Assembly (NCBI RefSeq): GCF_002895565.1
Contig: NZ_AZRN01000023.1
Span: 1 to 64,000, forward strand
DNA: 64,000 nt
Reading direction: 5' to 3'
DNA from: Petrotoga mexicana DSM 14811
Lineage (GTDB): Bacteria; Thermotogota; Thermotogae; Petrotogales; Petrotogaceae
Below the pieces are notes generated by a model. It was not told the origin of the DNA, did not search any database, and saw nothing but the letters and a program-made list of their open reading frames with translations. The stretch's first letter is position 1; each line of letters starts with the position of its first letter. Shown piece after piece: positions 1,773 to 59,348 of this stretch. A program made the translations under genes and the position numbers.

Positions 1773-3044
1773 TCACACTTCTTCAGTAAAAGGTTTGGGA
1801 TTAAACGTTTCTTCTGGTGCAATTCTTAAAAATAGGATAATTACAATAATTGATACTATACATGCAACCAGTGTAATTTGATATCCCTTCATCAAATCTA
1901 AAAGAATACCATATATCTGCATACCAACAGGGATAGCTCCTCGAGCAACCAACTCCACAACCGTAAAAACACGAGATCTTACGTTAGTTGGTGTCATTTT
2001 TTGCATGTTGGTATCAATAGGTATATTTATAAAAGCATTGCTCACACCTATTACCATAAGATTTATGTACAAAATTATTAAGAAGGTCCAAGATGCACCT
2101 CCGAATGTGGCAACGATATTAGGAAAAAATAAACCTGAAATGATGAAAAACATGATAGCCTCTACTATAAAACCAAATGTGATCGATTTTTTCGAATTAT
2201 TCTTCGAAAAAATAGTACCGATTAAAATACTACCAATTAGTATCCCCACGGTAAAAGAAGATTGGGTGATTCCATACTGTTCGCTTGTAAATCCAATTTC
2301 TTGCCTTAATACATAAGGAAGCACAATCGTAAGAATCGGTGCCATTATAAAATTGACAACCATTACAAACAAAAGCAATTCTTTCAAACCTTTTCTTCCT
2401 TTTATGAAAATTAATCCCTCTTTGATGTCTGAAAACATAGATTTAAAGGATATTTTTTGTTTACGTTCATAATGAGGATGGTAAGTAATAAACATTTCGC
2501 TTATAGCAGATATAATGAAAGAAATTCCATTTATAAGAAACACAACTTTTATTCCGCCAAATCCATATATGATTCCTCCAAGGATTGGTCCTATAATATT
2601 AGAAAAACTAGTTATTGAAGAGTTTACCGAATTAGCTCTGGTGAGAAAATTAATAGGGACCAAGTCCGGAAGCATCGCATTTGTTGAGCCGCCAAAAAAA
2701 CTGTCTAATATAGAAATAAATACTTGGGCAGTGAAGATAAAGGCAATGGTCATCCAACCTTGATAGGCTGAATATGCCATAAAAAGTATAATTACACCTC
2801 GTATATAATCCAAATTCACCATAATTTTCTTTCGATTTCTTCGATCTCCCAAAACCCCTGCTATCGGCGAAAAAAGTAAGCCTGGAAGCATGCTTAAAAG
2901 AGAAAATGTACCCATAAGGGTTCCAGAGCCTGTAAGATCAAGAATATAAAGCGGTAAAACAATCATTTGTATGCCAGTTCCTATTAAAGATACAAGTCTA
3001 CCTGCGGAATATAGTAAAAAATTTCTTTTTTGCTCATTTGTCAT
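1773..3044 (-). CDS. MFS efflux transporter (MefA/EntS-like)
   Basis: A 423-residue integral membrane protein of the major facilitator superfamily, about the usual length, with roughly 12 hydrophobic segments. The motif between segments 2 and 3 reads AGVLGDRRNRKKIM, the typical GxxxDRxxRRxxx loop. The subfamily looks like the MefA/EntS-type exporters (MFS_3), which expel drugs, macrolides or siderophores, but no substrate can be read from sequence. GGGGG lies 9 bases before the ATG. A GC-rich leader repeat lies just upstream, and an IS3-type element is inserted immediately beyond it, which may have separated the gene from its original promoter. Confidence 0.85.
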   Translation of the reverse strand: MTNEQKRNFLLYSAGRLVSLIGTGIQMIVLPLYILDLTGSGTLMGTFSLLSMLPGLLFSPIAGVLGDRRNRKKIMVNLDYIRGVIILFMAYSAYQGWMTIAFIFTAQVFISILDSFFGGSTNAMLPDLVPINFLTRANSVNSSITSFSNIIGPILGGIIYGFGGIKVVFLINGISFIISAISEMFITYHPHYERKQKISFKSMFSDIKEGLIFIKGRKGLKELLLFVMVVNFIMAPILTIVLPYVLRQEIGFTSEQYGITQSSFTVGILIGSILIGTIFSKNNSKKSITFGFIVEAIMFFIISGLFFPNIVATFGGASWTFLIILYINLMVIGVSNAFINIPIDTNMQKMTPTNVRSRVFTVVELVARGAIPVGMQIYGILLDLMKGYQITLVACIVSIIVIILFLRIAPEETFNPKPFTEEV

Positions 3045-3613: not shown

Positions 3614-4626
3614 TGGAAAATAGACATGTTGATTTTAAATCTACACCCATTTTGGATATTCAATATGTCAATAGGTTATATCGAGAGTACGGCGTTTCTC
3701 TTTCTTATCTTTTTGAAGAGTTCAACGTGAACCCTAGAACTTATTATTACAAAACGAGGCTCTTCTTGGAGACCAGTTCTTTGTCAAAGAAAAAGCATTC
3801 TAATTCCAAAACTCGAGGTTTTTGCTATACTGTGAATGGCGATAAGGTTCCTGATGAGTTTGTAATCGCTGAACTGATAAAAATTAAGGAACATCTCAAT
3901 ATGTATGTCTCAAGGCATTATTTGAAAACTCTTGGTTCTACTAAGCTGTGTGCGTATTTCAAGAAAAATTATGGAATAATTATCAATCATAAAAAGATGA
4001 GACGTTTGAAACACGAAATCGGTTTGGTTGGAAAATATACAAACCATTCACCACATCCAAGAAGAGGTCCTCAAAAACATGTTGCAACCGCTCCTAACCA
4101 GTTTTGGGAAATGGATATCAAATACTTCAAAACTAAAGATGGTTATGTACAGGTGTTCAGCATAATTGATACTTTTGATAGACAAATTGTTGGTTCTTAC
4201 ATCGGACCATCATGTAAATCAAAGGATATAGTTAAAACAATCTTTGAAGCTCTTAGGTACAGAGGAATATCAGGAAAAGGCTTGATTATTAGATCAGATA
4301 ACGGTACTCAATTCACATCTTTGTTAACGGAAAATTTTATGAGAAATGTTGGTATAATTCATGAGTTTGGATATCCACATAATCCAGATTGTCAAGCCTT
4401 TATCGAATCTTTTCATTCAAGTGTCCAAAGAGAGTTTGTGCCTTTGAATACCTTTACTAATATTAGTGATTTCACTATGAAATACAAAGTGTATTTGGAC
4501 TTTTATCTTAATATTAGACCTCATGGCTCTTTGAACTACTTGACACCAAATGAGTTCCATGTTTTATACAAAAAAAATAAAATAGAAATTAAGGAAATCA
4601 AAGAAAAACTTATCATTTTTGAGTAA
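3610..4626 (+). CDS. IS3-family transposase OrfB (DDE integrase core)
   Basis: A 338-residue protein with a rve-type retroviral integrase fold. The first catalytic Asp lies in QFWEMDIKYF and is followed by VFSIIDTFDRQIVG. The second is in IRSDNGTQFTS and the Glu in QAFIESFHSSVQREFV. The N-terminal region carries the IS150/IS3-type HTH_21 segment (KTLGSTKLCAYFKKNYGIIINHKKMRRLKHEIGL, given here in parts). Length and motifs look intact. Translation probably occurs both from the coupled ATGA start and as an OrfAB frameshift product. Confidence 0.9.
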   Translation: MMENRHVDFKSTPILDIQYVNRLYREYGVSLSYLFEEFNVNPRTYYYKTRLFLETSSLSKKKHSNSKTRGFCYTVNGDKVPDEFVIAELIKIKEHLNMYVSRHYLKTLGSTKLCAYFKKNYGIIINHKKMRRLKHEIGLVGKYTNHSPHPRRGPQKHVATAPNQFWEMDIKYFKTKDGYVQVFSIIDTFDRQIVGSYIGPSCKSKDIVKTIFEALRYRGISGKGLIIRSDNGTQFTSLLTENFMRNVGIIHEFGYPHNPDCQAFIESFHSSVQREFVPLNTFTNISDFTMKYKVYLDFYLNIRPHGSLNYLTPNEFHVLYKKNKIEIKEIKEKLIIFE

Positions 4627-4649
4627 AATCGAGTTATGCCTCTCTAATT

Positions 4650-4765
4650 TCTGATATTCGGGGCTCCGCCCGCGCCCATCTAAGGAAGAGTGAGTAGGAT
4701 TTCCCACTGTTTTCGCCATATAAGGAAGGGAAGATCCGCACGTACCCGCCCATAAGGAAATAATT
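4650..4765 (-). repeat. Three degenerate TTCCTTA-ATGGGCG units in a GC-rich patch
   Basis: On the minus strand the motif TTCCTTA followed by (AT)ATGGGCG occurs three times: TTCCTTATGGGCGGG, TTCCTTATATGGCGA and TTCCTTAGATGGGCGCGGG, spaced by about 36-46 bases. The patch is much richer in GC than its surroundings and lies between the IS3 and ISL3 elements. Its function is unknown. Confidence 0.45.
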
Positions 4766-4774
4766 ATTATAATT

Positions 4775-5422
4775 TTAACATATATTTTCGGATATTTCAA
4801 ACTCGATTAAGCTCCTTAACAAATATAGTTGATGGAATAGGCCTTTCAACTCTTCTTTTTTGTCTGATTTTAATATCGCTATCGTCGTCACCATCTTAAA
4901 CCCTCTAAATGAGTGTTCATCTATCCCTAACTTTATATCTTCCATATCTTGAAATTTCGTCCAATCTACCTTTACTTCAATCGAATCTAATAAATTACTC
5001 ACAGTTCTCACACTTACACCGTGCTCTTTCGCGGTTGCCGATATGCTCATCTTACGCAAATTCTTTACAAGGTTTTCTGTCTCTGCTCTTGTTATTCTTT
5101 GCCATCTATAACTTATCTTCTCATTTCTGAAGCTTTTCCCTGTTTTTTTACACATGTATCTTTGTGGTCTGTGTATCAGATATATTCTTTGTGTTCCAAC
5201 TTTGCCAGCTTTGATAATCCTTTCTTTTGCTTTACCGTTACGTACTATGTATTCTCGCTTGTCTTTACATCCTTTACATTTATACGGACATTCTGGTATC
5301 CCTACCTTTTTCGAATATCTCACTTCAAAATAAATCTCTCCATCTTTTCTCAAATCTTTTCTCTCTTTTAACTTAAAACCTTTGTCAATACCCAGTATTT
5401 GTGCTATAATTTTGTTGCTCAT
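4775..5422 (-). pseudogene. ISL3-family transposase, C-terminal half deleted
   Basis: The 215-residue product begins like an ISL3 transposase. It has a zinc-ribbon with CPYKCKGC (about residues 39-46) and a YMCKKTGKSF segment, then a helix-turn-helix (SISATAKEHGVSVRTVSNLL) and the first catalytic Asp in KLGIDEHSFRGFKMV (about 165-180). Family members are about 400 residues, so the remaining catalytic residues are missing. The reading frame ends in IS terminal sequence. The ribosome site GAGGAGTGAT can be paired by an upstream complementary arm (see the hairpin at 5423). Confidence 0.8.
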
Positions 5423-5530
5423 GATATCACTCCTCTCTCTTTTTATTTTTTGTTTTTTTGTTCTATGAGGAGTGATATCTTTTTTTTACCCCTTTTGTCA
5501 AGTACCTCATCAACCATTTTTATTATACAT
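4811..5530 (-). mobile_element. Internally deleted ISL3-family element
   Basis: The left edge (about 4811) matches the solo ISL3-type terminal sequence at 1366. The transposase gene reads inward from the right but is only half length, and its last codons run into the left terminal repeat, so an internal deletion has fused the N-terminal half to the IS end. The right edge, in 5480-5530, could not be placed exactly. Confidence 0.6.
5423..5479 (-). promoter_or_regulatory. Anti-Shine-Dalgarno hairpin before the ISL3 transposase start
   Basis: A perfect 13-bp inverted repeat, GATATCACTCCTC and GAGGAGTGATATC, spans 31 bases. The 3' arm in the minus-strand mRNA contains the ribosome site and ends one base before the ATG. 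Read-through transcripts entering from outside would fold and hide the site, whereas a transcript starting inside the loop would not. Confidence 0.6.
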
Positions 5531-5559
5531 CAGGTGAAGTGTCAATAGGATTGTTCCTA

Positions 5560-6606
5560 TTATTCAAAAAACCATCCGGGAAATTCAAGCTTTTGCTTTG
5601 AAAGAACCCTAAAGGCTTCAGACCAGTTCCTGATCATCGCATATAGAAAGCTTAAAGCATGATTACTGCTAACATCATCATTTTCGCTGAGAGAGGATGA
5701 TAAGGTTTTTATGATCGTTTCAAGTTCCTGAACGGTTGAGTTTCTTTGTAATGCAGGTTCCATAATTTGAACTAAATGATTAAACTTACTTAATAAAAAA
5801 GGTGCACGTCTGTTTAATTCGAATAATAAGCTTTTATTATTTTCTTCCAACCTTTCATAAGTCCATGGACGACTAAAGGCTTCCAGCTTATTTACGTCTA
5901 TGGTTTCAATAGGCATCATTCTTGAGTGAAAAAATAAATCCACCCATTGAACAGGCAAAATGGAAGACTTAATTTTTTGAGGCGGCTCTCCGATCCACAG
6001 CAAATAGCTTGACCATAGTGGGACAACATAGATATTTTCATTCGTTACAGAACGTATTCTTTTGAGCATTGTCGCTAACACAGATGGAATTGACGGTAAA
6101 GGGATTCCAGCTGCTAGGAATGATCCGGTTAAGTCCATACAATGGAAGACTACTCTCCCTTTTTCTTTTCTTAATGAAAGGAAAATTTTGATCCACTCAG
6201 TATCATAGGCATCATCAACATAACCTTTTTCATCATATACGTCAATCAAAATTGTATCAAATTTAGTGTTTAGTTTTTTGACTCCGTCTCTAAAATCGCA
6301 ATAATGTACTTTATAATCATTAAAAAGAGAATGTAATTCCTTCAATGACTCATCTATTTCTATACCAATCCCCTTAGTGGTTATTCCCCATTTATGGAGT
6401 AATTGCGCGAAGGTACCAGCTCCATATCCTAGGGCAAGAACATCACTGTTATTTATTGATGCAGCAGACCAAGCCAGGTAATCCCAATATTTATACGATA
6501 AATCACTTTTTACTATGACAGAATGAATCAATGGAGTAGGTTCTCCTGTCTTCGGATTGCAAATTACTACTGCATCATTAATCATTTTCCATGTATTTAA
6601 AGACAT
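5560..6606 (-). CDS. Spermidine-synthase-fold SAM-dependent transferase (RiPP operon)
   Basis: A 348-residue protein whose N-terminal 200 residues match the spermidine synthase-like Rossmann fold. The SAM-binding glycine loop is ALGYGAGTFAQLL (about 58-70), followed by an acidic residue in GIGIEIDES and the motif DTILIDVYDEKGYVDDAYD (about 113-131). The C-terminal 130 residues are not recognisable. Such proteins either methylate or transfer an aminopropyl-type group. It is the last gene of the minus-strand operon and overlaps the preceding gene by 29 bp. A GGAGGCGAC ribosome site supports the start. In this setting it probably modifies the peptide; a polyamine role is the alternative. Confidence 0.65.
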   Translation of the reverse strand: MSLNTWKMINDAVVICNPKTGEPTPLIHSVIVKSDLSYKYWDYLAWSAASINNSDVLALGYGAGTFAQLLHKWGITTKGIGIEIDESLKELHSLFNDYKVHYCDFRDGVKKLNTKFDTILIDVYDEKGYVDDAYDTEWIKIFLSLRKEKGRVVFHCMDLTGSFLAAGIPLPSIPSVLATMLKRIRSVTNENIYVVPLWSSYLLWIGEPPQKIKSSILPVQWVDLFFHSRMMPIETIDVNKLEAFSRPWTYERLEENNKSLLFELNRRAPFLLSKFNHLVQIMEPALQRNSTVQELETIIKTLSSSLSENDDVSSNHALSFLYAMIRNWSEAFRVLSKQKLEFPGWFFE

Positions 6607-7480
6607 TACCAGTCGCCTCCGATAATATAATTTTTGGATTTACTTCATCACATACCCATACCCGGCTTTGATTCATGAAATTGGGTATTTCCATGATCTC
6701 TGGGAATGAGTGGGTAAACAAATGATGTCTGTACCATAATCTCCATTTTGAGGGATCTTTGATTAGAATTTGCCGAAAGAAACTCATTAAGGATGACGCT
6801 GAAATAAAAATATCATTTGGCATAATTGGTAAAGAAATTAAAAGTTCGTTTTCAGTTGGTGCAATGGCTCCTATAATCGGCGTTTCCAATTTATGTAGCA
6901 AACGGAAAAAGCCACTTCTCAGATTGATGGTCGAACTGATAAACGGTAAGTGGAGAGGGGTTTTATCGTTGCCAGACCCAGTCATTCCATCTAAAAAAAG
7001 AACGACAATGCCACCTTTTTTTAGATGGCGTGCAATACGTAATCCGGTTGACTGATTTTCAGCTATGACCATTTGTATATTTAATTCATCGTACACTTTT
7101 AGCCATTTTTTCAATTGCTGCTCACTGTTATATGATTCTTGATCGACGACGAGTAAAACCAGATTGTCGGGTCTTACTTTAACTACTGATTCAAGAATAG
7201 TTTTGAAAGCATAACGATAAACACCATAATGTATAAAAACTAGAGCTAGACCCTGATTTGCGTATATTTGTTGAATTTTTTCTAAGCCTAATCCGCTGAT
7301 TTTTTTAAAACCCTGATAAAAGTCCGGATTTTCCCGGTATTCTTCAGAATTTTCTATATAATCGCAATAATTTTTCCAAACTTCATAAGGGTCATATAGG
7401 CCTAAATATTTTAATTCCTTGATGATGTTAGAAAAGGCCATAAAATAATCTAAATTTAATCTATTTTCAACTTTATCCAT
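6578..7480 (-). CDS. LpxL/HtrB-like acyltransferase homologue with altered catalytic motif
   Basis: A 300-residue protein resembling the lipid A lauroyl acyltransferase (LpxL/HtrB, LPLAT) family in its central part. It has LVFIHYGVYRYAF (about 79-91), then GGIVVLFLDG (about 154-163), then PFISSTINLRSGFFRLLHKL and PIIGAIAP. In active family members the first motif is H-x4-D/E (for example HFGNWE); here the residue at that position is Arg (HYGVYR), so either the chemistry differs or the assignment is distant. There is no N-terminal membrane anchor. It overlaps the arginase-like gene by 8 bp and the transferase gene by 29 bp. A GAAGGAGG site lies 8 bases before the ATG. I infer a role in lipidating or otherwise acylating the peptide. 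Confidence 0.55.
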   Translation of the reverse strand: MDKVENRLNLDYFMAFSNIIKELKYLGLYDPYEVWKNYCDYIENSEEYRENPDFYQGFKKISGLGLEKIQQIYANQGLALVFIHYGVYRYAFKTILESVVKVRPDNLVLLVVDQESYNSEQQLKKWLKVYDELNIQMVIAENQSTGLRIARHLKKGGIVVLFLDGMTGSGNDKTPLHLPFISSTINLRSGFFRLLHKLETPIIGAIAPTENELLISLPIMPNDIFISASSLMSFFRQILIKDPSKWRLWYRHHLFTHSFPEIMEIPNFMNQSRVWVCDEVNPKIILSEATGNVFKYMEND

Positions 7481-8519
7481 TTTTTCTGCCTCCTTCTTTT
7501 AGCTTGTTCTTTGTGTAAAAATGATTCAAAAGTGATATTAAGATTTCGAGAGGAAGATCATAATCTCCCTTCAAGATATTTCCGCCTCCTGTGCCTTCGA
7601 CCAAGTCAGCCCCGATCACTGGGGCAGATCCTTCAAAGATCTTTTGAATGATTAATATTAATTCATTTTTAGTGAATCCACCGGGAACCCCGAAATCGAC
7701 AAAGGGAAATAAAAGCGGATCCAAACTGTCCAAATCAATGGATATATAATTTGCACAATCCTCATACTCCTTTTGCCATTTTTCAATCAGATGAATAGAA
7801 AATGACGCCTTAGGAATTTTTATGACCTTTGGATGATCCACTATCTGTTTTTCAGTCCGATATCCCCTGCTTCCCAATTGGATAATTGCTCGTATGAAAG
7901 GCGGTTCAGAAAGATGTAAGAATACATTTCCATGGTCTAACTTATGGGTTGTTCCATATAGATCGTTATGAGCATCAATCACCCATATAACGATTGGTTT
8001 ATTTAAAGCCTTCAATGCTACTGCAACATCGTAAGTATAGGAATGGTCACCTCCTACACATAAAAAAGGTAAAGAATTTTTTATACAGAATTTTACAATC
8101 TGCTGAATTGATTCTCTCTCTGAAGAAGGATCGTTGATAACGTTTCCGATATCTAGTAATTTTCCGCACTCGATTTGACGGTCGGAATCAATATGAAAAA
8201 AGTTGATTGGAATAGGAACAGGATATTGGTTCTCATATTCCAGCTTATATGAAGCTTGTCTTAAAATATTTGGGAATTTGTCTACGGTTGAGATCGGTGA
8301 ACGACTGCCATTCTTAAATGGTACACCAAATATGACCATATCAGGATTTTGACCAGTGAATACATAATTAAAAAAAGGTTTCTCTTCAACTGTCGGCAAT
8401 TCAAGCCAATCTGCTCCGTCTGGTAAGTATTCCACTTTATAGTAGGAGTCATGATCAAAATCGTGTAAGTATAAGAATTCATTTTCCTTTTTTACGATAC
8501 TGTATTGCCTTATTTCCAT
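7473..8519 (-). CDS. Arginase/agmatinase-family ureohydrolase (candidate peptide arginase)
   Basis: A 348-residue protein with all metal-ligand motifs of the arginase fold: CVGGDHSYTYD, WVIDAHNDLYG and SIDLDSLDP. The His loop HGNVFLHL and a late acidic residue in GADLVEG are also present, so it should bind two Mn ions and hydrolyse a guanidino group to release urea. About 110 extra N-terminal residues precede the fold. Free arginine or agmatine are possible substrates. However, a peptide with two Arg in its last seven residues is encoded in the same operon, and OspR-type peptide arginases convert Arg to ornithine in RiPPs, so peptide-Arg is my preferred substrate. AAGGAGG lies 7 bases before the ATG; the gene overlaps the M50 gene by 41 bp. 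Confidence 0.8.
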   Translation of the reverse strand: MEIRQYSIVKKENEFLYLHDFDHDSYYKVEYLPDGADWLELPTVEEKPFFNYVFTGQNPDMVIFGVPFKNGSRSPISTVDKFPNILRQASYKLEYENQYPVPIPINFFHIDSDRQIECGKLLDIGNVINDPSSERESIQQIVKFCIKNSLPFLCVGGDHSYTYDVAVALKALNKPIVIWVIDAHNDLYGTTHKLDHGNVFLHLSEPPFIRAIIQLGSRGYRTEKQIVDHPKVIKIPKASFSIHLIEKWQKEYEDCANYISIDLDSLDPLLFPFVDFGVPGGFTKNELILIIQKIFEGSAPVIGADLVEGTGGGNILKGDYDLPLEILISLLNHFYTKNKLKEGGRKNG

Positions 8520-9069
8520 AATATTCCTCCTTGTGTAAATAAACCATTCGACGTGTGGACAGGATTAACATCAGCAGGTATACTAGGGTCATGCCTAATT
8601 GAGTATAGGACTCAGCTTCCTTGTCTTTCCACAAAAAAACCAGGCCGGATAGGGATAAAATAAACAAGAGTCCGACTAGAAACCATAATAGATTTTTAAT
8701 CTTCTTTGAAGGATATGCCTTGAAAATAAAAGCTCCGTCTGTTGTTGACAATGGAACAAGGTTGATTGAAATAATGGAAAAGTAAAACAATGCAAAAGAA
8801 ACCCAAATGGTATCATTTACAGAAAGAATAAAAACAAGTGAAGCTAGAAGCTGCATAGAAACGCCATTAATAGTAAAGAAAATATATTTTTTAAAAGTAA
8901 GATTTTCAGGATAGGAATATACACCTTTGATAGAAGACCAAGAGTATTCAAACTTTTTCAATCGTCCACCTATCAAATAAATGGCAATTACATGTCCCAA
9001 TTCGTGAATAAGAATCATAGTAAGCATATATACTATGATCATCACTATTAATGAAAGCAATTCATTCAC
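8479..9069 (-). CDS. M50-family intramembrane-type metalloprotease
   Basis: A 196-residue membrane protein with about five hydrophobic segments. The zinc site HELGH is at about residues 22-26 in the first segment, and the second motif NLVPLSTTDG (about 103-112) matches the N-x2-P-x4-DG pattern of site-2-type proteases. It is shorter than most S2P proteins and lacks a PDZ domain, which resembles the small M50 proteases associated with bacteriocin/RiPP loci. It would be placed to cleave the leader from the modified peptide at the membrane. GAGGTG lies just before the start. It is the first enzyme gene after the 29-residue peptide. Confidence 0.75.
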   Translation of the reverse strand: MNELLSLIVMIIVYMLTMILIHELGHVIAIYLIGGRLKKFEYSWSSIKGVYSYPENLTFKKYIFFTINGVSMQLLASLVFILSVNDTIWVSFALFYFSIISINLVPLSTTDGAFIFKAYPSKKIKNLLWFLVGLLFILSLSGLVFLWKDKEAESYTQLGMTLVYLLMLILSTRRMVYLHKEEYYGNKAIQYRKKGK

Positions 9070-9099
9070 CTCACATCAAAAAATCGATTAGAAGATAGA

Positions 9100-9205
9100 T
9101 AATTTACCTCCTCAGATGGACACCCTTGCCTTCGACTAGGCGCTCCCGCTATATTGTCCATCGCGGACTTTCACCGCTTAGCTATTGGGTATGCTGGCCA
9201 CATTT
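9100..9205 (-). mobile_element. Fragment resembling group II intron domain I
   Basis: On the minus strand the stretch contains GCGGTGAAAGTCCGC, then GGACAATATAGCGGGAGCGC, CTAGTCGAAGGCAAGGGTGT and CCATCTGAGGAGG. From memory this combination is characteristic of the 5' domain I region of bacterial group II introns (GGUGAAAGUCC..., GCAAGGGUGUCC...GUGAGG). No reverse-transcriptase gene and no domain V are present, so it is a remnant. It is more GC-rich than its surroundings and lies between the peptide gene and the M50 gene. Confidence 0.45.
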
Positions 9206-9212
9206 ATGAGAA

Positions 9213-9241
9213 GAAGAAGAAGGATGGAATCCTTCTTCTTC
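9213..9241 (-). terminator. Hairpin just after the 29-residue peptide gene
   Basis: A perfect 13-bp stem (GAAGAAGAAGGAT with ATCCTTCTTCTTC) encloses a 3-base loop. It starts 17 bases after the stop codon. There is no T-run, so it is better read as an mRNA-stabilising hairpin or partial attenuator that would keep the peptide transcript in excess over the enzyme genes. Confidence 0.55.
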
Positions 9242-9257
9242 CCTAGGGTGGAAAGGA

Positions 9258-9347
9258 TTAGCATCGGATCACACAACGAATGACCTTACGATCTGCTTCT
9301 AGTTTTTTTAATTCTTCCAGTGTTAAAGGCTTCGGTTGCTTTTTCAT
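9258..9347 (-). CDS. Putative RiPP precursor peptide ending IRCVIRC
   Basis: A 29-codon open frame with a near-perfect ribosome site (GGAGGTGAT, 4 bases before ATG). The N-terminal part, with LTLEELKKLEADRK, looks like a short helical leader. The C-terminus is an imperfect heptad IRCVIRC carrying two Arg-Cys pairs. It is the first gene of the operon that continues with an M50 protease, an arginase-fold enzyme, an acyltransferase homologue and a transferase. I infer that it is the substrate: Arg could become ornithine, and Cys could be cross-linked or modified. I know no named family with this sequence, so the call rests on context, ribosome site and composition. Confidence 0.7.
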   Translation of the reverse strand: MKKQPKPLTLEELKKLEADRKVIRCVIRC

Positions 9348-9373
9348 ATGTATCACCTCCTTTCATTTTGTAT

Positions 9374-9404
9374 AGAGTAAATGACCCGAACAAACATTTA
9401 CTCT
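9374..9404 (-). terminator. Hairpin between decayed peptide gene and RiPP precursor
   Basis: AGAGTAAATG pairs perfectly with CATTTACTCT across 11 bases. It sits at the end of the decayed secreted-peptide gene and 27 bases before the RiPP precursor start, so it may have ended the older transcript. No T-run follows. Confidence 0.35.
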
Positions 9405-9545
9405 ACTTCTTCCACAACATTTAAAACCGATCTGGGTACTCCCCCCTCTGTTGATCTTGTATCTAGATTTTCTCCACTAAAAACAAAAAATACCATTCAA
9501 TAGCAAAACTGTAACAAGCTTGCTGTAAAAAAGTCCTAATACTAT
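9398..9545 (-). pseudogene. Decayed copy of the secreted signal-peptide gene
   Basis: On the minus strand this stretch aligns with the intact 47-codon gene at 14824-14967, from the hydrophobic core (TTTTGCTATTGAATGGTATT) to the end (GTTGTGGAAGAAGTAGAGTAA). The start region has changed (no ATG at the equivalent position), and indels in the signal-sequence part bring in stop codons. It is therefore a dead paralogue that marks an older duplication of the peptide/sensor module. Confidence 0.6.
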
Positions 9546-9622
9546 CTCACCCCTATCTTTTGATTTAATCTTTGTTTAAAAAGCAACTGCTACAATCAAT
9601 TTTCATCCTTCTCAATTTCATT

Positions 9623-9903
9623 ATACGCTTTTCCATATGGTTTTCAAGTCGTTTTTTAATTGGTTTTAAACATACATTAACAAAGTATTACAGAGATCGG
9701 TCAAAAAAACTTATGTTAAAATTATTTACGATATTTTTTATCGGATATAATGCATTTGTCATTTCTTTTGGTTATTATAAAAGAGTTATGATATAATGAA
9801 ATTTAGAGAAAAATATAGAAGCTCTGAAGGTTGTTAACATTCCAAAGAAAAGGTTTTTGAAGTAAATTTTATTTTATATTTTTGTTGCTATTGGGTAAAA
9901 GGA
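9623..9903 (+). repeat. Intergenic/promoter repeat, copy A (about 280 bp)
   Basis: It aligns base for base, without indels and with about 15 differences by eye (roughly 95% identity), to 15042-15322, the promoter and leader of the TPR-like gene. It includes the same TTGGTT...TATAAT promoter. Here the downstream gene is gone. The bases right after the repeat (AGCCTTCTGCTGTTTCTTTT, then GAAGG) resemble codons near the 3' end of the TPR-like gene at about 16975-17005, so the body of that gene was deleted. No intact gene lies in 9360-10019. Confidence 0.8.
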
Positions 9904-10019
9904 GCCTTCTGCTGTTTCTTTTGAAGGTTATACCCTGTAACCCTTTTAAAATCAAAATCTTATTTTTGATAATCCTTTTATCTCCAAACTGTCTATATAA
10001 ACTCTATCCTCAAATTCCT

Positions 10020-10942
10020 TTAATCTGGAATCGTTAATACTACAGTTTCTTTTGTTATCTTTTTCCCAGCTACTACTGTGAAGAAAAATAAAAATATCCC
10101 TACTCCTAACAGTATCCATAAAAGTATATCGTTGAACTGTTCTGTCACAGGAAACAACGAAGTCAAATAACTGCCACCAAAAACAACTATGAATCCTATT
10201 ATAAAAAACAAGTTATCAATTATACTTATTCTTCGAATTCTAAAAATTAGATAATACACCCCCACTTTTTCTAAGAATAACTCTTCTAAGTTTCTGTAAT
10301 TACTTAATATATCACTTTTTAAGTTATCCAACACTATTTCTCCTTTTTTCATAAGCATTACCCTGTGAGCTAACTTTTCCACTTCTGCTAAGTCGTGAGA
10401 GGTGTAGAATATACTTTTTCCTTCTTTGTTGAGTTTAAATATTAACTCTCTCATCTTTATCCTTGAAACAGGATCCAAACCACTCATGGGTTCATCAAGT
10501 ATGAAAAGTTCTGGGTCTTTTAAAAGTCCTAAAATAAAAGAAAACTTCCTTCTCGTTCCTTTTGAATAAGTATGAACCTTTTTTGGTAAGAATTCTGAGA
10601 TGTCTAAATACTTTGCATAGCTTTCTATTTGGTCATTTGATAGTTTTCCACCGAGATATTCTCTGAATATTTCGATATTTTTCCATCCCGTTTCTTTTTC
10701 CCAGAGCAAATCCTTTTCTGAAACTACTCCGATGGTTAAGCCATCTTTTTTGATTATTTGATCCTTACCATGGTTGTAGATCCCCGTAAGGCATCTTATT
10801 GTTGTAGTCTTTCCTGCTCCGTTGGGTCCTACCAACGCCAAAATCTCATTCTCTACAACATTGAAGGTTATACCTTTTAGTATTTTGTTACCACCAAGTT
10901 CCTTTGTTAAAGATCTAACAGAGATAAGTGTTCCTTTGTTTT
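10020..10942 (-). pseudogene. ABC exporter ATPase, 3' part, fused to a permease-like tail
   Basis: This is the larger part of the ATPase gene interrupted by the IS1634-type element. The frame from 10942 lacks a start codon (it derives from the 152-bp target duplication); internal Met at 10841 lies just before Walker A, GPNGAGKTTT. The ABC signature is YSKGTRRKFSF and Walker B is LFILDEPMSGLD, followed by the H-loop YTSHDLAEV. After EELFLEKVG the frame continues into about 80 residues with two strong membrane segments (IDNLFFIIGFIVVFGGSYL and ILLWILLGVGIFLFFFTVVAG) unlike an ATPase C-terminus. I infer that a deletion joined the ATPase to the last part of its ABC-2 permease. Confidence 0.7.
10791..10942. 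repeat. 152-bp target-site duplication, left copy
   Basis: Aligns without indels to 12820-12971 with five mismatches by my count. It begins and ends exactly where the IS inverted repeats begin, as expected for a target duplication. IS1634 and IS1549 are known for unusually long, variable target duplications. Confidence 0.85.
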
Positions 10943-11083
10943 CTCTTGACTTTGATAGTTGAGAGACGATTTTTTAGTAAACTGAACGGAAGGAAGCGGG
11001 TTTGAGGGGATAAATCACCTATTTTTTTGAAAAAATTTTTTTGATGTAGTGACACTTTTTTCTCTTTTAATTATATTATTCTC

Positions 11084-11112
11084 TTGACTTCATAATATTT
11101 CTGTGGTATAAT
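11084..11112 (+). promoter_or_regulatory. IS1634-type transposase promoter
   Basis: TTGACT and TATAAT are separated by 17 bases, 35 bases before the transposase start. An inverted repeat CTTCATAAT (11088-11096) / ATTATGAAG (11122-11130) overlaps the promoter and leader and could act as an operator or RNA hairpin. Confidence 0.8.
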
Positions 11113-11146
11113 ATTAAAGACATTATGAAGTTGGGAGATGATTTGG

Positions 11147-12679
11147 ATGTATGTTAGAACGGTAAAAAACAACCAAGGGAAAGAATACTTAAGAATAGTA
11201 GAAAGTTACCGTGAAAACGGTAAGAATAAACAAAAGATAATCGCTAATTTGGGTAGAATCGATACTATCAGTAGAAAAGAAGTGGAAAATATTGTCGATA
11301 AACTTGTACAGATATATGATATAAAAGGTTATGTGAATTTGAATAATGTTGAGGAAGCACCTGATAAGAAGAATTATGGGATAAAGGTAATAGTGGATAA
11401 GTTGTTTGAAAGGTATGAGATGGATAAGTTCTTTGAAAAGATGGATAAAAAGATAAGGTTCGATGTGGAAGATTTGTTGAAAATAATGGTTATGAACAGA
11501 ATAATAGAACCTAAAAGCAAGTTGGGAATATTCAACGACTTAGATTATTATGGATTCAAAAGAATAGATGAGGCAGAGACAGATGAAGAAGGGATAGCCT
11601 TACAATGGATGTACAGGACGCTAGATGTGTTAGCGCAAAAGAAGGAAGAGTTAGAGAAACATCTGTATTGTCAAAGGATAAGTTTATTCAATTCTGTAGT
11701 AGACTTAGTGTTTTACGATGTAACGACGTTAGCCTTTGAGACACAACAAACGAATGAGTTACTACAGATGGGTTATTCTAAAGATAAGAAGTTCAATGAA
11801 TCACAGGTAGTTTTAGGGATGTCGATAGTTGGGAAAGGAAACGCCCCGAAGGGGGTTCAAGGAATGCCGGTTAGTTTTGATATATATCCAGGTAACACGT
11901 TCGAAGGACATACGTTCAAAGATACGATTGAACTGATGAAAAAGAGATATCAGCTGGGGAAGGTAATAGTGGTTTCTGATAGGGGGATGATGAGTAAAAC
12001 CAATATGGAAATAGTAGAGAATTCCGATTACGAATTCATAGTTGGTAAATCGATAAAACAGTTAAAAAAGGTGGATATATTCGATGGGGAATTCACTGAA
12101 ATATCAAAAGGGATTGAATACAGAGAAATAGAATACGGGGGTAAAAGATTACTCATAATACATTCAAAGGAAAGGGCTGAAAAAGATAGAAAAGGCGAAA
12201 AATATGACGGATACTATGGAATAATAACAAACACACAGTTGAATCCTAAACAGATATTAGAGCAATACCATACCTTGTGGAAAGTGGAAGAAAGTTTCAG
12301 AACACTAAAGAATTATCTTGAAACAAGACCGATATTTCATTGGACACAGAAAAGGATAAAGGGACACATAGTGATGAGTTTCATATCTTACATAATGCAA
12401 AGAACACTTGAATTAGAACTTGAAAGAAACAATATAGAATACTCACACGAAAAGATAAGAGAAGCAATTAAAAACATGGAATACATAGATATTAAAACCA
12501 ACGAACAGCATTTTGCCATTAGGACTAACATGAATGTTTTAGCTCAGAAGATATTGAAGATACTTAATATACCAATCCCAAAAGTGGTAACCCCATATGA
12601 GGAATTCATAGAGAAACTAAAACTACAGGACCAAAATGAGGAAAATAAAGGATTAGAAAGGAGCAAAGCACAAGCGTAA
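11147..12679 (+). CDS. IS1634-family transposase
   Basis: The protein is about 510 residues. It begins MYVRTVKNNQGKEYLRIVES and contains the DDE-type segments VDLVFYDVTTLAFE, IVVSDRGMMSK and YHTLWKVEESFRTLKNYLETRPIFHW, the last being the YREK-like block typical of IS4-superfamily (IS1634 group) enzymes. Length is normal and no frameshift is seen. I prefer the ATG at 11147 over 11138, because TTGGGAG then lies at proper spacing. It probably remains active or was so recently, although five mismatches between the target duplications imply the insertion is not very new. Confidence 0.9.
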   Translation: MYVRTVKNNQGKEYLRIVESYRENGKNKQKIIANLGRIDTISRKEVENIVDKLVQIYDIKGYVNLNNVEEAPDKKNYGIKVIVDKLFERYEMDKFFEKMDKKIRFDVEDLLKIMVMNRIIEPKSKLGIFNDLDYYGFKRIDEAETDEEGIALQWMYRTLDVLAQKKEELEKHLYCQRISLFNSVVDLVFYDVTTLAFETQQTNELLQMGYSKDKKFNESQVVLGMSIVGKGNAPKGVQGMPVSFDIYPGNTFEGHTFKDTIELMKKRYQLGKVIVVSDRGMMSKTNMEIVENSDYEFIVGKSIKQLKKVDIFDGEFTEISKGIEYREIEYGGKRLLIIHSKERAEKDRKGEKYDGYYGIITNTQLNPKQILEQYHTLWKVEESFRTLKNYLETRPIFHWTQKRIKGHIVMSFISYIMQRTLELELERNNIEYSHEKIREAIKNMEYIDIKTNEQHFAIRTNMNVLAQKILKILNIPIPKVVTPYEEFIEKLKLQDQNEENKGLERSKAQA

Positions 12680-12789
12680 GACTAAAACACTGATAAATAA
12701 AGGAAAAGAAAGGCATGTAGTGACACTTTTGAAAAACAGAGAAAGCCAAAAACGCTTTTTTGCAGTTATTCATGCCTGTTTTAGAATTC

Positions 12790-12981
12790 TTACGTTTTTG
12801 TAACTGTCAAACTCAGGAGGCACCTTATTGTTGTAGTCTTTCCTGCTCCGTTGGGACCTACCAACGCCAAAATCTCATTCTTTACAACATTGAAGGTTAT
12901 ACCTTTTAGTATTTTGTTACCACCAAGTTCCTTTGTCAAAAATCTAACAGAGATAAGTGTTCCTTTGTTTTTTGATACCAT
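12790..12981 (-). pseudogene. ABC exporter ATPase, 5' fragment ended by the IS
   Basis: The true start of the interrupted ATPase (MVSKNKGTLISVRFLTKELG). It includes Walker A GPNGAGKTTTIRC and then runs into IS sequence after residue 54, where a stop follows. Its ATG lies inside the last codons of the radical SAM gene (46-bp overlap in another frame), which indicates translational coupling in the original operon. Joining it to 10020-10790 restores a continuous ATPase. Confidence 0.8.
12820..12971. repeat. 152-bp target-site duplication, right copy
   Basis: Partner of 10791-10942. It contains codons of the ABC ATPase from just after the start codon to just past Walker A. Confidence 0.85.
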
Positions 12982-14312
12982 CTACAATTTTCCCCCTTTT
13001 CTCTTGCTTTTATAAATCCTCTGGCTATACAGCGAGAACAAAACCAAAGATCTTCACAATCTCCACAAATATCTTCTCTTGGAGCAGGAGTTTTTGAAAT
13101 ATTTTCCAAAAGCTTTGTTTTATTTATTAGAAAATCCTTCAAATTATTCTTATAATCCTTTAAATTACCAATTATTATATCACCCATTTGACATAATCTT
13201 ACATCTAATTTAGATGATACTACCAAACCGGTACTTCCAATTCCGCAATTAATATCATGACTAGTCGCTTCGTCTAAAACCGCAATAAAACTAGGGCCAA
13301 ACTTATTTTTCAATTTGTTCAAAGTGTTTACAAAAGCATTAAAAGCATCCTCATTGTAAGATAGAATTAAATCATCATTATCTTTTGCTCTACCCACAGG
13401 TGTCACTGGACCAAATGCCACTGCTGTAACACCTATTTTGTAGGCAATATTCGCTACTTCTTCCACTTGGTTAACATTACCAGGAGTAACACTACAAGCC
13501 AATCTGACCGGAATTCCTATATTCACTAATTTTTTTATTGTGTTTAAAGCTAATTCGTATGCGTTTTTATGTCCGGTAAACCAATTCACATATTTCGGTG
13601 TACTTCCATGCAAATCAACTTGAGCAACTGCTTTATCTTTGTTTCTAGATAAAACATCAAAGGTTTTTTCAGTAAAATTACTGCCATTAGATAGAATGCC
13701 TATTAATTCAAAATCCTCATTCAAGGCTTTTTCAATTATTTCGTTAAAATAAGGATGTATACTAGGTTCTCCTCCCGTTATTTCTAAAGTTCTGGTCCCT
13801 AATGCAAACATTTGATCTATTAGTGAAAAAGCATCTTCTTTATCTATATCTGTTAAATGTTCGCTCTCCCCACTTTTATTATAACAATGTTTGCAACGGA
13901 AATTACATTTGCTAGTTATCTCCACTACCATTCCTCTTGGAACTACGTAATTCCAACTCCCTAACTTTTCTAATTTATCATCGATAATTGCGTCTTTCTT
14001 TTCATAGGAAATTGTTGATAAACCATAGCTTCTTAATTGGTTTAAAAAATTAAAAATATTTTCTTTAACTCTTTCCTCAGAGTCAGAATACTTTTTTGAA
14101 AAAAATTCTATCATCTGACCAACTTTCATGGGTTCATACATTTTTTCAATTATTTCTCCACCCTCTTTTGTTAATTTAAGAGAAAGAGACTGTTTTAAAC
14201 TACTATCACGAGACTTCGACATATTTGGTATGAACATTAAGGTTGGATATAATGGAGATAGGAACAATTTAGCCTTATTTACGTTCAATTTTAAGTAAAC
14301 ATCTTCTCTCAT
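12936..14312 (-). CDS. Radical SAM/SPASM peptide maturase
   Basis: A 458-residue enzyme. Residues about 40-105 (LSLKLTKEGGEIIEKMYEPM, then VGQMIEFFSKKY) resemble a PqqD/RRE-type peptide-binding domain. The radical SAM cluster motif is C136-x3-C140-x2-C143 (KCNFRCKHCYNKSGE), followed by the SAM-binding EITGGEPSIH. The C-terminal SPASM region has many Cys (CGIGSTG, LCQMGD, ICGDCEDLWFCSRCIARG, ENCRWY) for auxiliary iron-sulfur clusters. Such enzymes install thioether or C-C links in ribosomal peptides. It lies downstream of a Cys-rich 40-residue peptide gene and overlaps the ABC exporter ATPase gene. GGAGGG lies 11 bases before the ATG. Confidence 0.88.
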   Translation of the reverse strand: MREDVYLKLNVNKAKLFLSPLYPTLMFIPNMSKSRDSSLKQSLSLKLTKEGGEIIEKMYEPMKVGQMIEFFSKKYSDSEERVKENIFNFLNQLRSYGLSTISYEKKDAIIDDKLEKLGSWNYVVPRGMVVEITSKCNFRCKHCYNKSGESEHLTDIDKEDAFSLIDQMFALGTRTLEITGGEPSIHPYFNEIIEKALNEDFELIGILSNGSNFTEKTFDVLSRNKDKAVAQVDLHGSTPKYVNWFTGHKNAYELALNTIKKLVNIGIPVRLACSVTPGNVNQVEEVANIAYKIGVTAVAFGPVTPVGRAKDNDDLILSYNEDAFNAFVNTLNKLKNKFGPSFIAVLDEATSHDINCGIGSTGLVVSSKLDVRLCQMGDIIIGNLKDYKNNLKDFLINKTKLLENISKTPAPREDICGDCEDLWFCSRCIARGFIKAREKGENCRWYQKTKEHLSLLDF

Positions 14313-14469
14313 GGTTTTTGTTTCCCTCCTAACTTTTGTTTGCGTTTTTAAGCAATATTTCCCAAAATTAAAATATTACTTTCAACTTTTAAAAATTTTT
14401 TTTAGCTATTTTAACCATTTATGTATATTCGGTTCATTAACTTAAACTTGAATGACTTTAGAACAAAAG

Positions 14470-14500
14470 CTCCCCCCGCAGCTTTTCTCTGCGAGGGAAA
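14470..14500 (-). terminator. Attenuator hairpin between Cys-rich peptide and maturase
   Basis: On the minus strand TCCCTCGCAG pairs with CTGCGGGGGGA (one G-U pair) around AGAAAAG, and the following sequence is GCTTTTGTT. It is placed 20-50 bases after the peptide stop. A partial terminator would give more peptide than enzyme. The rest of 14313-14519 holds no gene. Confidence 0.6.
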
Positions 14501-14519
14501 AATTACTCTTTGATAAATA

Positions 14520-14642
14520 TTACCACAATCCAACAAATGCAACGGCAGTAGACAAAGCTGCACCACTAATTGGGCAAATAAGACAACTATTGCACGCACT
14601 ACAATACTCAGCCCTTGGACCTATAACACCTGCGTTTCCCAT
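14520..14642 (-). CDS. Cys-rich peptide, probable substrate of the radical SAM enzyme
   Basis: A 40-residue product. It begins MGNAGVIGPRAEY, continues with four Cys in ten residues (CSACNSCLIC), and ends in a hydrophobic Gly/Ala tail (ISGAALSTAVAFVGLW). AGGAGG lies 9 bases before the ATG. The Cys cluster, small size and position just before the radical SAM/SPASM gene and an ABC exporter fit a thioether-linked (sactipeptide/ranthipeptide-like) RiPP. A similar arrangement of small Cys-rich peptide, radical SAM protein and ABC transporters is known, from memory, around TM1316 of Thermotoga maritima. Confidence 0.75.
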   Translation of the reverse strand: MGNAGVIGPRAEYCSACNSCLICPISGAALSTAVAFVGLW

Positions 14643-14823
14643 TATCTTCGCCTCCTTTCACTTTTATTTTTCACTACTTTTCCTGCAGGGTTGCTTCTTG
14701 CCGGCAAATAATTCCTCTCCCCACAATCTTTTCCTTCAAAAACTTATCTAGATACTTTCTTAAATCTTTTAAGCTTTTTAAAAGCGTTGTTTTTTATGTA
14801 AAGTAAAAACCTTAATCAAACAT

Positions 14824-14967
14824 TTACTCTACCCCTTCCACAACACTTACAACCGTCCTGGGTACTACTCCATCTGTTGATCCTGTACTGTTACCTTCTC
14901 CACCAAAAACAAAAATCCCACTCAATAGCAGAACAGTGATAAACAAAACAGCAATAAATTTCTTCAT
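14824..14967 (-). CDS. Small secreted peptide, candidate signal pro-peptide
   Basis: A 47-residue product with a classic signal sequence (MKKFIAVLFITVLLLSGIFV, then FGG) and a mature part of about 20-24 residues (EGNSTGSTDG, then VVPRTVVSVVEGVE). GGAGG lies directly before the ATG, preceded by GGGGTGAA. It is divergent from a TPR-like protein gene and upstream of the Cys-rich peptide operon. I infer an exported pheromone-like peptide whose processed C-terminus could be re-imported (an oligopeptide permease is encoded 2.5 kb away). A decayed copy exists at 9398. No known family name can be assigned. Confidence 0.65.
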   Translation of the reverse strand: MKKFIAVLFITVLLLSGIFVFGGEGNSTGSTDGVVPRTVVSVVEGVE

Positions 14968-15041
14968 CCTCCTTCACCCCCTTAGATTATTCTTTTAATT
15001 TAAAACTAATATCTCAAATAATTCAATCCCTCCTTTTAATC

Positions 15042-15322
15042 ATACGCTTTTCCATATGGTTTTCAAGTGTTTTTTTAATTGGTTTCAAATATGTATTTAT
15101 AAAGTATTACAGAGATTGGTCAAAAAAACTTATGTTAAAATTATTTACGATATCTTTTATCGTATATAATGCATTTGTCATTTCTTTTGGTTAATATAAA
15201 AGAGTTATGATATAATGAAATTTAGAAAAAAATATAGAAGCTCTGAGGGTTGTTAACATTCCAAAGAAAAGGTTTTTGAAGTAAATTTTATTTTATATTT
15301 TTGTTGCTATTAGGTAAAGAAA
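15042..15322 (+). repeat. Intergenic/promoter repeat, copy B (about 280 bp)
   Basis: Matches 9623-9903 at about 95% without indels. It forms most of the divergent regulatory region between the secreted peptide gene and the TPR-like gene. Confidence 0.8.
15187..15216 (+). promoter_or_regulatory. Promoter of the TPR-like gene
   Basis: TTGGTT and TATAAT are 18 bases apart, with a leader of about 115 bases before the ATG. The boxes are preserved in repeat copy A. Confidence 0.55.
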
Positions 15323-57557: not shown

Positions 57558-58610
57558 ATGCAGTGGGAAGAAGTAATACCCAAATTAAAGCCGTTAAACG
57601 AAGAATATATTATGCAAGCGCAAGAACGTTTGGATCAATTAACCAAACCAAAGGGAAGTTTGGGACAGTTAGAACAGTTGGCAATGCAATTATCGGCAAT
57701 TTATCAGTCGATTTATTTTTCTGTAGATCCTATAACTCATTATGTATTTGTAGGAGATCATGGAATTACCGCAGAAGGTGTCTCTGCTTTTCCGTCTGAA
57801 GTTACTACACAGATGGTGTATAACTTTTTGCAGGGAGGGGCAGCTATCAATGTGTTAACTAAAAACAATAATGTTGCCATCAAAGTAGTTGACGTAGGAA
57901 TGAAAGATACGATTGCAGATCCCAGACTGATTCAACGTAAGATCAAAAAAGGAACTAACAATTTCTTATTCAGTAAAGCAATGAGCAAGAAAGAAGTGTA
58001 TGATGCTATCCAGGTCGGATTTCAATTAGGAATTGAAGAAGTTGAACAGGGAGCGAAAATGTTGTCGATCGGAGAGATGGGTATTGGCAACACTACATCA
58101 AGTGCCGCTATAGCTGCTCATTTGCTTGAACTACCCGTTGAACAGATGACAGGTAAAGGGACAGGACTTAATGATATTCAACTAAAACATAAAATAAATG
58201 TGATTCGCAAAGCCTTTGAAAAGCACCAACTTGCTACAAAAGATGCTATGGAGACGTTAGCTACCTTTGGTGGAGTGGAACATGCGGCAATGACCGGAAT
58301 GATTATTGCTGCATCCTACAAACAAATCCCAGTTTTGCTTGATGGACTGAATACAGGTGCTGCCGCCCTTGCTGCGACATATATTCATCCTATCACTGCA
58401 TCTTATATGATTGCAGCCCATCAATCAGAAGAGCCTGGACATGCAATTATTTTAAAAGTCTTGCAATTAAAACCGTTATTACAATTGTCATTACGATTAG
58501 GAGAAGGAACTGGAGCGATTTTAGCCTTACCTTTAATTCGTTCTACTCAACATTTGCTACAGGAAATGGCTACCTTTTCCCAAGCAAAGGTGTCGCAAAA
58601 AGAGCGGTAA
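57558..58610 (+). CDS. cobT: Nicotinate-nucleotide--dimethylbenzimidazole phosphoribosyltransferase
   Basis: A 350-residue enzyme of normal length. It has RLDQLTKPKGSLGQLEQLA, HYVFVGDHGITAEGVSAFPS, IGEMGIGNTTSSAAIAAHLL and the catalytic Glu region HQSEEPGHAIILKVLQLKPL. It makes alpha-ribazole phosphate for the lower ligand of cobalamin. The protein is Gln-rich and Firmicute-like in style. Under riboswitch control. Confidence 0.95.
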   Translation: MQWEEVIPKLKPLNEEYIMQAQERLDQLTKPKGSLGQLEQLAMQLSAIYQSIYFSVDPITHYVFVGDHGITAEGVSAFPSEVTTQMVYNFLQGGAAINVLTKNNNVAIKVVDVGMKDTIADPRLIQRKIKKGTNNFLFSKAMSKKEVYDAIQVGFQLGIEEVEQGAKMLSIGEMGIGNTTSSAAIAAHLLELPVEQMTGKGTGLNDIQLKHKINVIRKAFEKHQLATKDAMETLATFGGVEHAAMTGMIIAASYKQIPVLLDGLNTGAAALAATYIHPITASYMIAAHQSEEPGHAIILKVLQLKPLLQLSLRLGEGTGAILALPLIRSTQHLLQEMATFSQAKVSQKER

Positions 58611-58756
58611 GAGATAGGAAGGCAGAAGAATGTTCTATTCGTTTAGCTGATTCCTTCTATGGATTAAACAAGCACTATATTCGGCTTGCCGTAAAAAGGC
58701 GTGAAGAAAATCAGCAGTTGATAAAGGAGTTGAACTTATTTGTCTCAAAACGATAA
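58595..58756 (+). pseudogene. cobD: C-terminal remnant of CobD (threonine-phosphate decarboxylase)
   Basis: A start-less frame overlapping the cobT end reads AEECSIRLADSFYGLNKHYI then RLAVKRREENQQLIKEL, the typical end of CobD/aminotransferase-like decarboxylases (RDCSNFxGL...YIRVAVRxxxEN). The rest of the gene is gone. Confidence 0.65.
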
Positions 58757-59348
58757 AAAAATTATTTTAGTAACAGGTGGAATTCGTAGTGGCAAATCAA
58801 GCTTTGCTCAACGTTTAGTTCAACCCTATGGGGATCATGTTCGTTATATTGCAACAGCGCAAGCAAAGGATGAGGAAATGGAAAAAAGAATTGTGATTCA
58901 TCGCCAGAATCGACCAAAATCATGGCGAACTCTAGAAGAACCCATTCATTTGGCAAAGTTATTTTATGAGGATAGAAGTGATGATTTTGATAAGCAGATG
59001 AATCAAAAAGTTGCATCCTTAATCGATTGTATCACCCTTTGGATCTCTAATCTCCTTTTGCAGAAGGATGAGCAAGGGAAAGAACTATGGGAGACAGAGG
59101 AAGGACAAAAAAAAGTAGAATCGATGATTGATGATTTTCTTCACGCCCTTACCGGCCATCGCTATCCAGTAATTATTGTAACCAATGAAGTTGATTGGGG
59201 TGGAATAGAAATGAATCCATTAGGTAGAGTGTATCAGGATATTTTAGGGTGGACTAATCAAAAGATTTCCAACATTGCAGATGAGGTTTATATGGTTGTA
59301 TCTGGTATACCGGTTCTATTAAAGGGTGGGATACGGAATGATCAATAA
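58740..59348 (+). CDS. cobU: Adenosylcobinamide kinase / guanylyltransferase
   Basis: A 202-residue bifunctional enzyme with the P-loop LVTGGIRSGKSSFAQRL, the YIATAQAKDEEMEKRIVIHR segment containing the guanylylated His, and LIDCITLWISNLL and IVTNEVDWGGIEMNPLGRVY. TTG start after AAAGGAG. It overlaps cobS by 11 bp. It activates cobinamide to GDP-cobinamide. Confidence 0.94.
   Translation: MSQNDKKIILVTGGIRSGKSSFAQRLVQPYGDHVRYIATAQAKDEEMEKRIVIHRQNRPKSWRTLEEPIHLAKLFYEDRSDDFDKQMNQKVASLIDCITLWISNLLLQKDEQGKELWETEEGQKKVESMIDDFLHALTGHRYPVIIVTNEVDWGGIEMNPLGRVYQDILGWTNQKISNIADEVYMVVSGIPVLLKGGIRNDQ

Follow-up and report, generated by a model that had tools for sequence, protein, structure and literature searches.

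What kind of product is made by the compact five-gene operon found at positions 5560–9347 of a contig of Petrotoga mexicana DSM 14811 (NZ_AZRN01000023.1, assembly GCF_002895565.1) is the question addressed here; the window is the whole analysed stretch of 64,000 nucleotides (positions 1–64,000, forward strand). In the original prediction, a 29-codon gene preceded by a ribosome binding site and followed by four overlapping minus-strand genes was read as an operon for an ornithine-containing, possibly acylated and alkylated, ribosomally synthesized and post-translationally modified peptide (RiPP). Re-examination returned this arrangement at the same coordinates, and the 29-amino-acid (aa) peptide is almost certainly a RiPP precursor, judging from its conservation. 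The operon as a whole probably belongs to a family of RiPP clusters without a name of its own, working as outlined below. It comprises the following features:

9258..9347, minus strand: gene of the predicted 29-aa precursor peptide (ATG at 9347, stop ends at 9258; from orthologues, tandem copies and a leader motif search)
9348..9363, minus strand: ribosome binding site AAAGGAGGTGATACAT (the same at the Lysinibacillus precursors; that of Priestia differs in the last base only)
9207..9246, minus strand: hairpin GAAGAAGAAGGATTCCATCCTTCTTCTTCTTC, 3' of the peptide gene (from folding)
8479..9069, minus strand: M50-type intramembrane metalloprotease (HExxH and NxxPxxxxDG motifs)
7473..8519, minus strand: ureohydrolase of the arginase family PF00491 (profile match, di-metal ligands)
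6578..7480, minus strand: putative acyltransferase (AT), distant kin of Lip_A_acyltrans, PF03279
5560..6606, minus strand: S-adenosylmethionine (SAM)-type transferase (MT) with an aminopropyltransferase-like fold and a C-terminal helical part (VIRCVIRC subgroup only)

The window precursor, MKKQPKPLTLEELKKLEADRKVIRCVIRC, for which no Pfam or NCBIfam model gave a match, can be divided into a leader, MKKQPKPLTLEELKKLEADR, and a probable core, KVIRCVIRC. Each of the M50, arginase, AT and MT genes overlaps the next, while a gap of 188 nt lies between the stop codon of the peptide and the M50 gene. The hairpin in this gap was not called a terminator by a consensus terminator scan; folding places a hairpin likewise behind the last precursor in the Bacillaceae loci described below. 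Such a hairpin probably limits read-through, which would leave the peptide in excess over the enzymes. Between the hairpin and the M50 gene lies a dispersed element of 116 nt (9100–9215) that is not found in the Bacillaceae loci, has 83–85% identical copies at several loci of the same genus, and matches no Rfam family at gathering level.

Scanning the genomes with the arginase only gave no match at first; the patterns sat on variable stretches of the protein. When the patterns were steered to the catalytic motifs by artificial variant rows (which are not biological data), a scan of 84,980 species led to Priestia taiwanensis (60%), a Lysinibacillus metagenome-assembled genome (MAG; 49%), and L. 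mangiferihumi (46%), and tblastn with the actual protein as query confirmed the matches. In all three Bacillaceae genomes, the order of the genes (peptide, M50, arginase, AT, MT) is that of the window, the proteins are 40–60% identical, and genes for a major facilitator superfamily (MFS) transporter and a TetR-like protein precede the set (families checked for Priestia). The precursors of this VIRCVIRC subgroup are nearly identical (QPKPLTxEELxxLEADRxVIRCVIRC) and occur in one to three tandem copies. The Priestia precursor is MEKQPKQPKPLTAEELKQLEADRNVIRCVIRC, and those of Lysinibacillus read MKKQT.NQPKPLTVEEL.KLEADRNVIRCVIRC, with three tandem copies in the MAG and two in L. mangiferihumi. Each Bacillaceae precursor sits behind AAGGAGGTGATACAT, of which Priestia has the variant ..ACAG. 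Because the same ORF (open reading frame) and nearly the same ribosome binding site precede the same genes in three Bacillaceae genomes, the peptide ORF is more than a chance reading frame.

Comparison of the last 26 codons of the window and Priestia genes revealed 10 synonymous and 3 non-synonymous codon differences. Under random placement of 15 base changes (20,000 trials; a simple null without transition bias), 10 amino-acid changes were obtained on average, and never as few as 3. By this codon comparison, the peptide is under purifying selection. Closer to the window, the AT was absent from 20 other genomes of the same family, among which the operon is unique, and the MT as query gave only short, weak matches in 103 genomes of Thermotogota. 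Plasmid and phage collections and viral contigs yielded no relatives of the AT, the MT or the operon.

A wider search of 1,672 genomes, mostly of Bacilli and chiefly with the AT as query, allowed the definition of class A loci, which combine a peptide, an M50 protease, an AT and a nearby MFS-type transporter; the window was counted, though its MFS gene lies outside the operon. In total, 12 such loci were found in 11 genomes, window included. The arginase is present in 10 of the 12, the MT in four (the VIRCVIRC subgroup only) and not in the other eight, and six loci keep peptide, M50, arginase, AT and MFS genes without MT. Precursors at these six include MSNLQPISSEELVKFEEVRNGDKITVIRC, ..EGDVVRCGDVVRCGDVIRC and ..ASGCCASGRCASGRC, and their types read MS[NK]LQPISSEEL.KFEEVRNGDKITVIRC, MEELKEVSLEELENYEEEREGDVVRCGDVVRCGDVIRC and MKKSIVLKPVDAKDLKELEANRRNASGCCASGRCASGRC. 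A leader motif, L/V/I-T/S/D..E-L..L/F/Y-E/A..R, is common to the subtypes; the cores vary (VIRCVIRC, ITVIRC, (GDVVRC)n, (ASGRC)n, KCEC, and others). With this motif, a precursor was detected at each class A locus and at no other locus among the 37 sequences scanned. Class A precursors are 27–39 aa long and occur in up to four tandem copies per locus, each with its own ribosome binding site.

A pointer to the chemistry comes from the cores. As a check, the original prediction had proposed looking for a short ORF ending in Arg-Cys upstream of the arginase gene; one is present in 10/10 arginase-bearing class A loci, where Arg-Cys forms the C-terminal end of 13/13 precursor copies. The original reading thus withstood its own genomic check. 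The two arginase-less loci (G1054 and G1040) have the cores KAIKCECYYTF, HAFKCTCTVSKK, KSVSCSCTISKK, DSISSSCKITKK and NVYYCQCHMPWNK, the last of which has a GTG start and was read by eye in intergenic sequence. All five of these precursors contain Lys, and none has an Arg beyond the conserved Arg of the leader. That leader-end Arg is kept even without an arginase and is thus probably not an arginase substrate. Whatever the subtype, and whether or not an arginase is present, no core residue is more constant than Cys. On the simplest reading, a side-chain amine is required by the enzymes that act later, and would be provided by ornithine where the arginase is present, and by lysine otherwise. 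In a tree of the AT, G1054 and G1040 group together (100/100); the unrooted tree is compatible with either gain or loss of the arginase.

Annotation of the arginase as such was confirmed by a PF00491 match (E-value, 2e-29). The di-metal ligands of the window protein are found in GGDHS, DAHND and SIDLD and at Glu308, and an alignment of seven class A arginases shows no variation in GGDH, DAHxD and DxD. The assignment to the OspR type did not hold: the protein has no PF12640 match, and the EEH(N/H)EAF motif is absent in the alignment. Annotation of the M50 protease appears reasonable, since its profile matches, although below threshold (PF13398, 24.1 bits against a cut-off of 26; PF02163, 22.5 against 27.2), are accompanied by the active-site motifs HELGH and NLVPLSTTDG. 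HExxH is found in 9/9 M50 members compared, and the Asp-Gly is kept.

The AT is putatively assigned to the kin of lipid A acyltransferases (LpxL/HtrB, PF03279) through its relatives only. These belong to a second group of loci, class B, found in genomes of Paenibacillus size and a few others, which combine an AT and mostly an arginase with proteins resembling KAS-III, acyl-CoA dehydrogenase and a MATE exporter and have a pair of M16 proteases where class A has M50; several of these family names were assigned by eye. Four class B AT homologues score above the PF03279 cut-off (29.2, 26.9, 25.0 and 23.5 bits against 22.3), and a profile built mainly from class A ATs matched such class B proteins with E-values of 1e-67 to 1e-72. 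Mycobacterial PatA, a member of the same superfamily as the lipid A acyltransferases, is among the weak fold matches of the AT model. Unlike lipid A acyltransferases, the AT is encoded beside peptide genes and has HX4R in place of HX4(D/E). In two class B loci (L084 and L093), the AT is fused to an M16 protein. The company kept by the AT in class B hints that it works with acyl chains, but class B itself is a different system.

The MT scores 17.6 bits with PF01564, below the cut-off of 22.9. Its structural model has a pLDDT of 75, and aminopropyltransferases are its best fold match with modest TM-scores. In aminopropyltransferases, the acidic residue of GGG(D/E)G holds the aminopropyl group of decarboxylated SAM. 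The MT reads G-[YF]-GAG instead: Ala takes the place of the acid, both in the window protein (Ala63) and in its three orthologues, which favours SAM over decarboxylated SAM as the substrate.

Based on these observations, the following pathway may be proposed. In the precursor, the conserved ..LTxEELxxLEADR would be the leader, and xVIRCVIRC a short core with Cys. The arginase would hydrolyse the Arg side chains of the core to ornithine, with release of urea; that such a conversion takes place on the peptide is very probable, given the catalytic residues and the composition of the cores. The AT would then acylate the freed side-chain amine, the Cys thiol being a less likely target; acylation of the amine is slightly more likely than not. 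In the VIRCVIRC subgroup, the MT would add a small group, for which methyl from SAM is likelier than aminopropyl; methylation itself is proposed tentatively, at somewhat less than even chances. The M50 protease would remove the leader at the membrane, and in the Bacillaceae clusters the MFS transporter, which has no counterpart inside the window operon, would export the product.

Several points weigh against this scheme. It is built from gene content, conservation of the precursor and selection on it, catalytic residues of arginase and protease, and Arg/Lys co-variation, and its product is a predicted one. The two arginase-less loci are sister lineages, so that the Arg/Lys switch counts as a single evolutionary contrast. 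Class B loci combine an arginase and an AT with no recognisable precursor, a search for a small precursor there having given nothing convincing. Sets without a short upstream ORF, which the original prediction had named as evidence to the contrary, were not found within class A and appeared only in the more distant class B. For the window AT, neither Pfam nor PDB gave a direct match, the model is poor, and the profile comparison with LpxL, LpxP and LpxM of Escherichia coli was not significant. In most members (class A with arginase), the AT motif reads H-[YF]-G-x-Y-R; with Arg in place of the HX4(D/E) acid, the usual mechanism of acyl transfer cannot be taken for granted. What the MT shares with its fold matches is a core common to the whole superfamily (TM about 0.45).

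Some of these points bear on the nearest alternative, in which precursor and ornithine are right, yet the AT places an acyl group on the Cys thiol or on the N-terminus, or performs no acylation at all and, for example, joins side chains. The missing catalytic acid speaks for such a role, as does the constancy of Cys in cores with and without arginase. The exchange of Arg and Lys that tracks the arginase is nevertheless best explained by the need for a side-chain amine, and we regard this alternative as rather unlikely. The end of the peptide gene also invites a regulatory explanation, namely that the short ORF is an attenuation leader sensing arginine or cysteine through its terminal codons and the hairpin, and that the enzymes are unrelated to it. 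An attenuator would have such Arg-Cys codons at its end and, between them and the enzyme genes, a hairpin. It would not be expected to have up to four tandem precursors with individual ribosome binding sites, conserved N-terminal amino acids with mostly synonymous changes, a single hairpin with no visible alternative structure, or a leader retained with an altered core in the arginase-less loci, and attenuation appears very improbable.

Even less credible is the polyamine module that the original prediction had named as its own alternative, in which the ureohydrolase acts on free arginine or agmatine, a spermidine synthase extends the product, and the ORF is unrelated. Arginase and spermidine-synthase-like folds do occur side by side in the window, but the MT gene is missing in the majority of class A loci, all of which keep peptide, M50 and AT, and the residue expected to hold the aminopropyl group is Ala in the MT and its three orthologues. 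This alternative thus went unsupported. A further issue is the role of a processed peptide, which could serve as a pheromone, a secreted signal, and not as an antimicrobial. Pheromone maturation by M50 proteases does occur, the core is short, and in a promoter cassette of the window's genus (described below) a regulator-like gene that is divergently placed is accompanied by a conserved ORF of 47 aa that looks secreted. The dedicated MFS exporter and TetR regulator of the Bacillaceae clusters are, however, usual for exported metabolites, and a pheromone is considered the less probable role, though by no means a negligible one.

Returning to the modified peptide, comparison with known systems indicates where the proposed pathway would stand. 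In selidamides (phaeornamide and kamptornamide, and nostolysamides for Lys), side-chain amines of ornithine or lysine in ribosomal peptides are fatty-acylated (PMC12703449, PMC13060382). There, acylation is performed by GNAT enzymes, and the clusters concerned have NHLP or Nif11 leaders. The window operon lacks a GNAT and encodes a protein of the lipid-A-acyltransferase type, and its leader, about 20 aa long, is unrelated. Its final product may be similar to selidamides, with a different leader, arginase family and acyltransferase family. OspR, FlmR and OhkR belong to PF12640, and KgrD of the enteropeptins is a PF00491 peptide arginase (PMC12703449). A conversion of peptidyl Arg to ornithine is likewise proposed for the OspR-type enzymes, from which the window arginase differs in its family and in its DAHND and SIDLDSLDP motifs. 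Enteropeptins share with the window operon a PF00491 arginase in a RiPP pathway and an Arg beside Cys, but depend on a radical SAM thiomorpholine enzyme and an Fe-S methyltransferase, neither of which is found in the window operon or its Bacillaceae orthologues: the radical SAM protein encoded elsewhere in the window gave no match to the three Bacillaceae loci, and no radical SAM or Fe-S methyltransferase genes were seen there. Small HExxH membrane proteases are also encoded in epipeptide and daptide operons (LiaK/YydH; daptide_HExxH); the window M50 protein matches these models weakly, far below their cut-offs, and the partner genes differ.

No model or paper describing a family with peptide, PF00491 arginase, M50 and AT was found in the model libraries and open-access literature searched, in line with the original prediction, which knew of no named class with this gene set. 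There is an even chance that the loci represent a new class of RiPPs that spread over Bacilli and reached a thermophilic lineage of Thermotogota. In this class, N-acylation of ornithine (made in place by a PF00491 arginase) or of lysine beside Cys would be the work of an enzyme of the lipid-A-acyltransferase type, a convergent counterpart of selidamides with unrelated enzymes. Such a class would add a modified-peptide family with maturase types not found described together, peptide arginases of PF00491 in a lineage other than that of KgrD, and the use of a lipid-A-type acyltransferase for RiPP maturation. For the requirement of the AT, the loci without arginase offer a ready natural control, and with precursors of only 27–39 aa the chemistry is quickly testable in E. 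coli.

The region upstream of the operon provides a further line of evidence:

9366..9899, minus strand: dispersed promoter cassette copy (289 nt 93% and 124 nt 77% identical to the copy at 14792–15318)

This copy contains TTGAAA-16-TATAAT at 9647–9620 (a consensus match only), and its small secreted ORF is degenerate. The stretch of about 500 bp has 3–13 matches in each genome of the window's genus. Other copies include a divergent gene of about 573 aa with no Pfam match and the conserved 47-aa ORF, MKKFIAVLF..VVPRTVVSVVEGVE, and then precede varied small Cys-containing ORFs together with radical SAM, ABC or other genes. Since the operon occupies a cassette slot used for peptide clusters, its position lends independent support to the RiPP reading. 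It is possible that the cassettes are peptide-controlled RiPP expression sites, and the cassette marks many further peptide clusters in this genus. No account of it was found in the open-access literature; the presence of a thuricin-CD-like cluster in Petrotoga mobilis has been on record since 2011 (PMC3132745).

Within the window, the cassette copy at 14792–15318 lies upstream of a Cys-rich peptide, MGNAGVIGPRAEYCSACNSCLICPISGAALSTAVAFVGLW (about 14520–14642), and a radical SAM protein (12936–14312) whose best NCBIfam similarity, far below cut-off, is to AlbA; this is a neighbouring unit with its own peptide. In this unit (10020–14642), an ABC ATPase gene is split by a transposase (11138–12679), flanked by a 154-nt repeat (10789–10942 and 12818–12971, 97%). 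The window operon lacks an MFS gene of the Bacillaceae type, and the MFS transporter encoded at 1773–3044 could serve as its exporter. A 91% identical homologue of this transporter is located directly behind a cassette promoter in a genome of the same genus.

Outside the family, plasmid pWHA07 of Mammaliicoccus sciuri carries at 4386–11771 a 27-aa ORF, two pyridoxal phosphate (PLP)-decarboxylase-like proteins (by eye), an N-terminally extended arginase, a PLP transferase, and ABC and GNAT proteins; this arginase cluster may be a further peptide system. Cobalamin-type genes at 57558–60671 of the window appear Bacillus-like by eye and were possibly also transferred.

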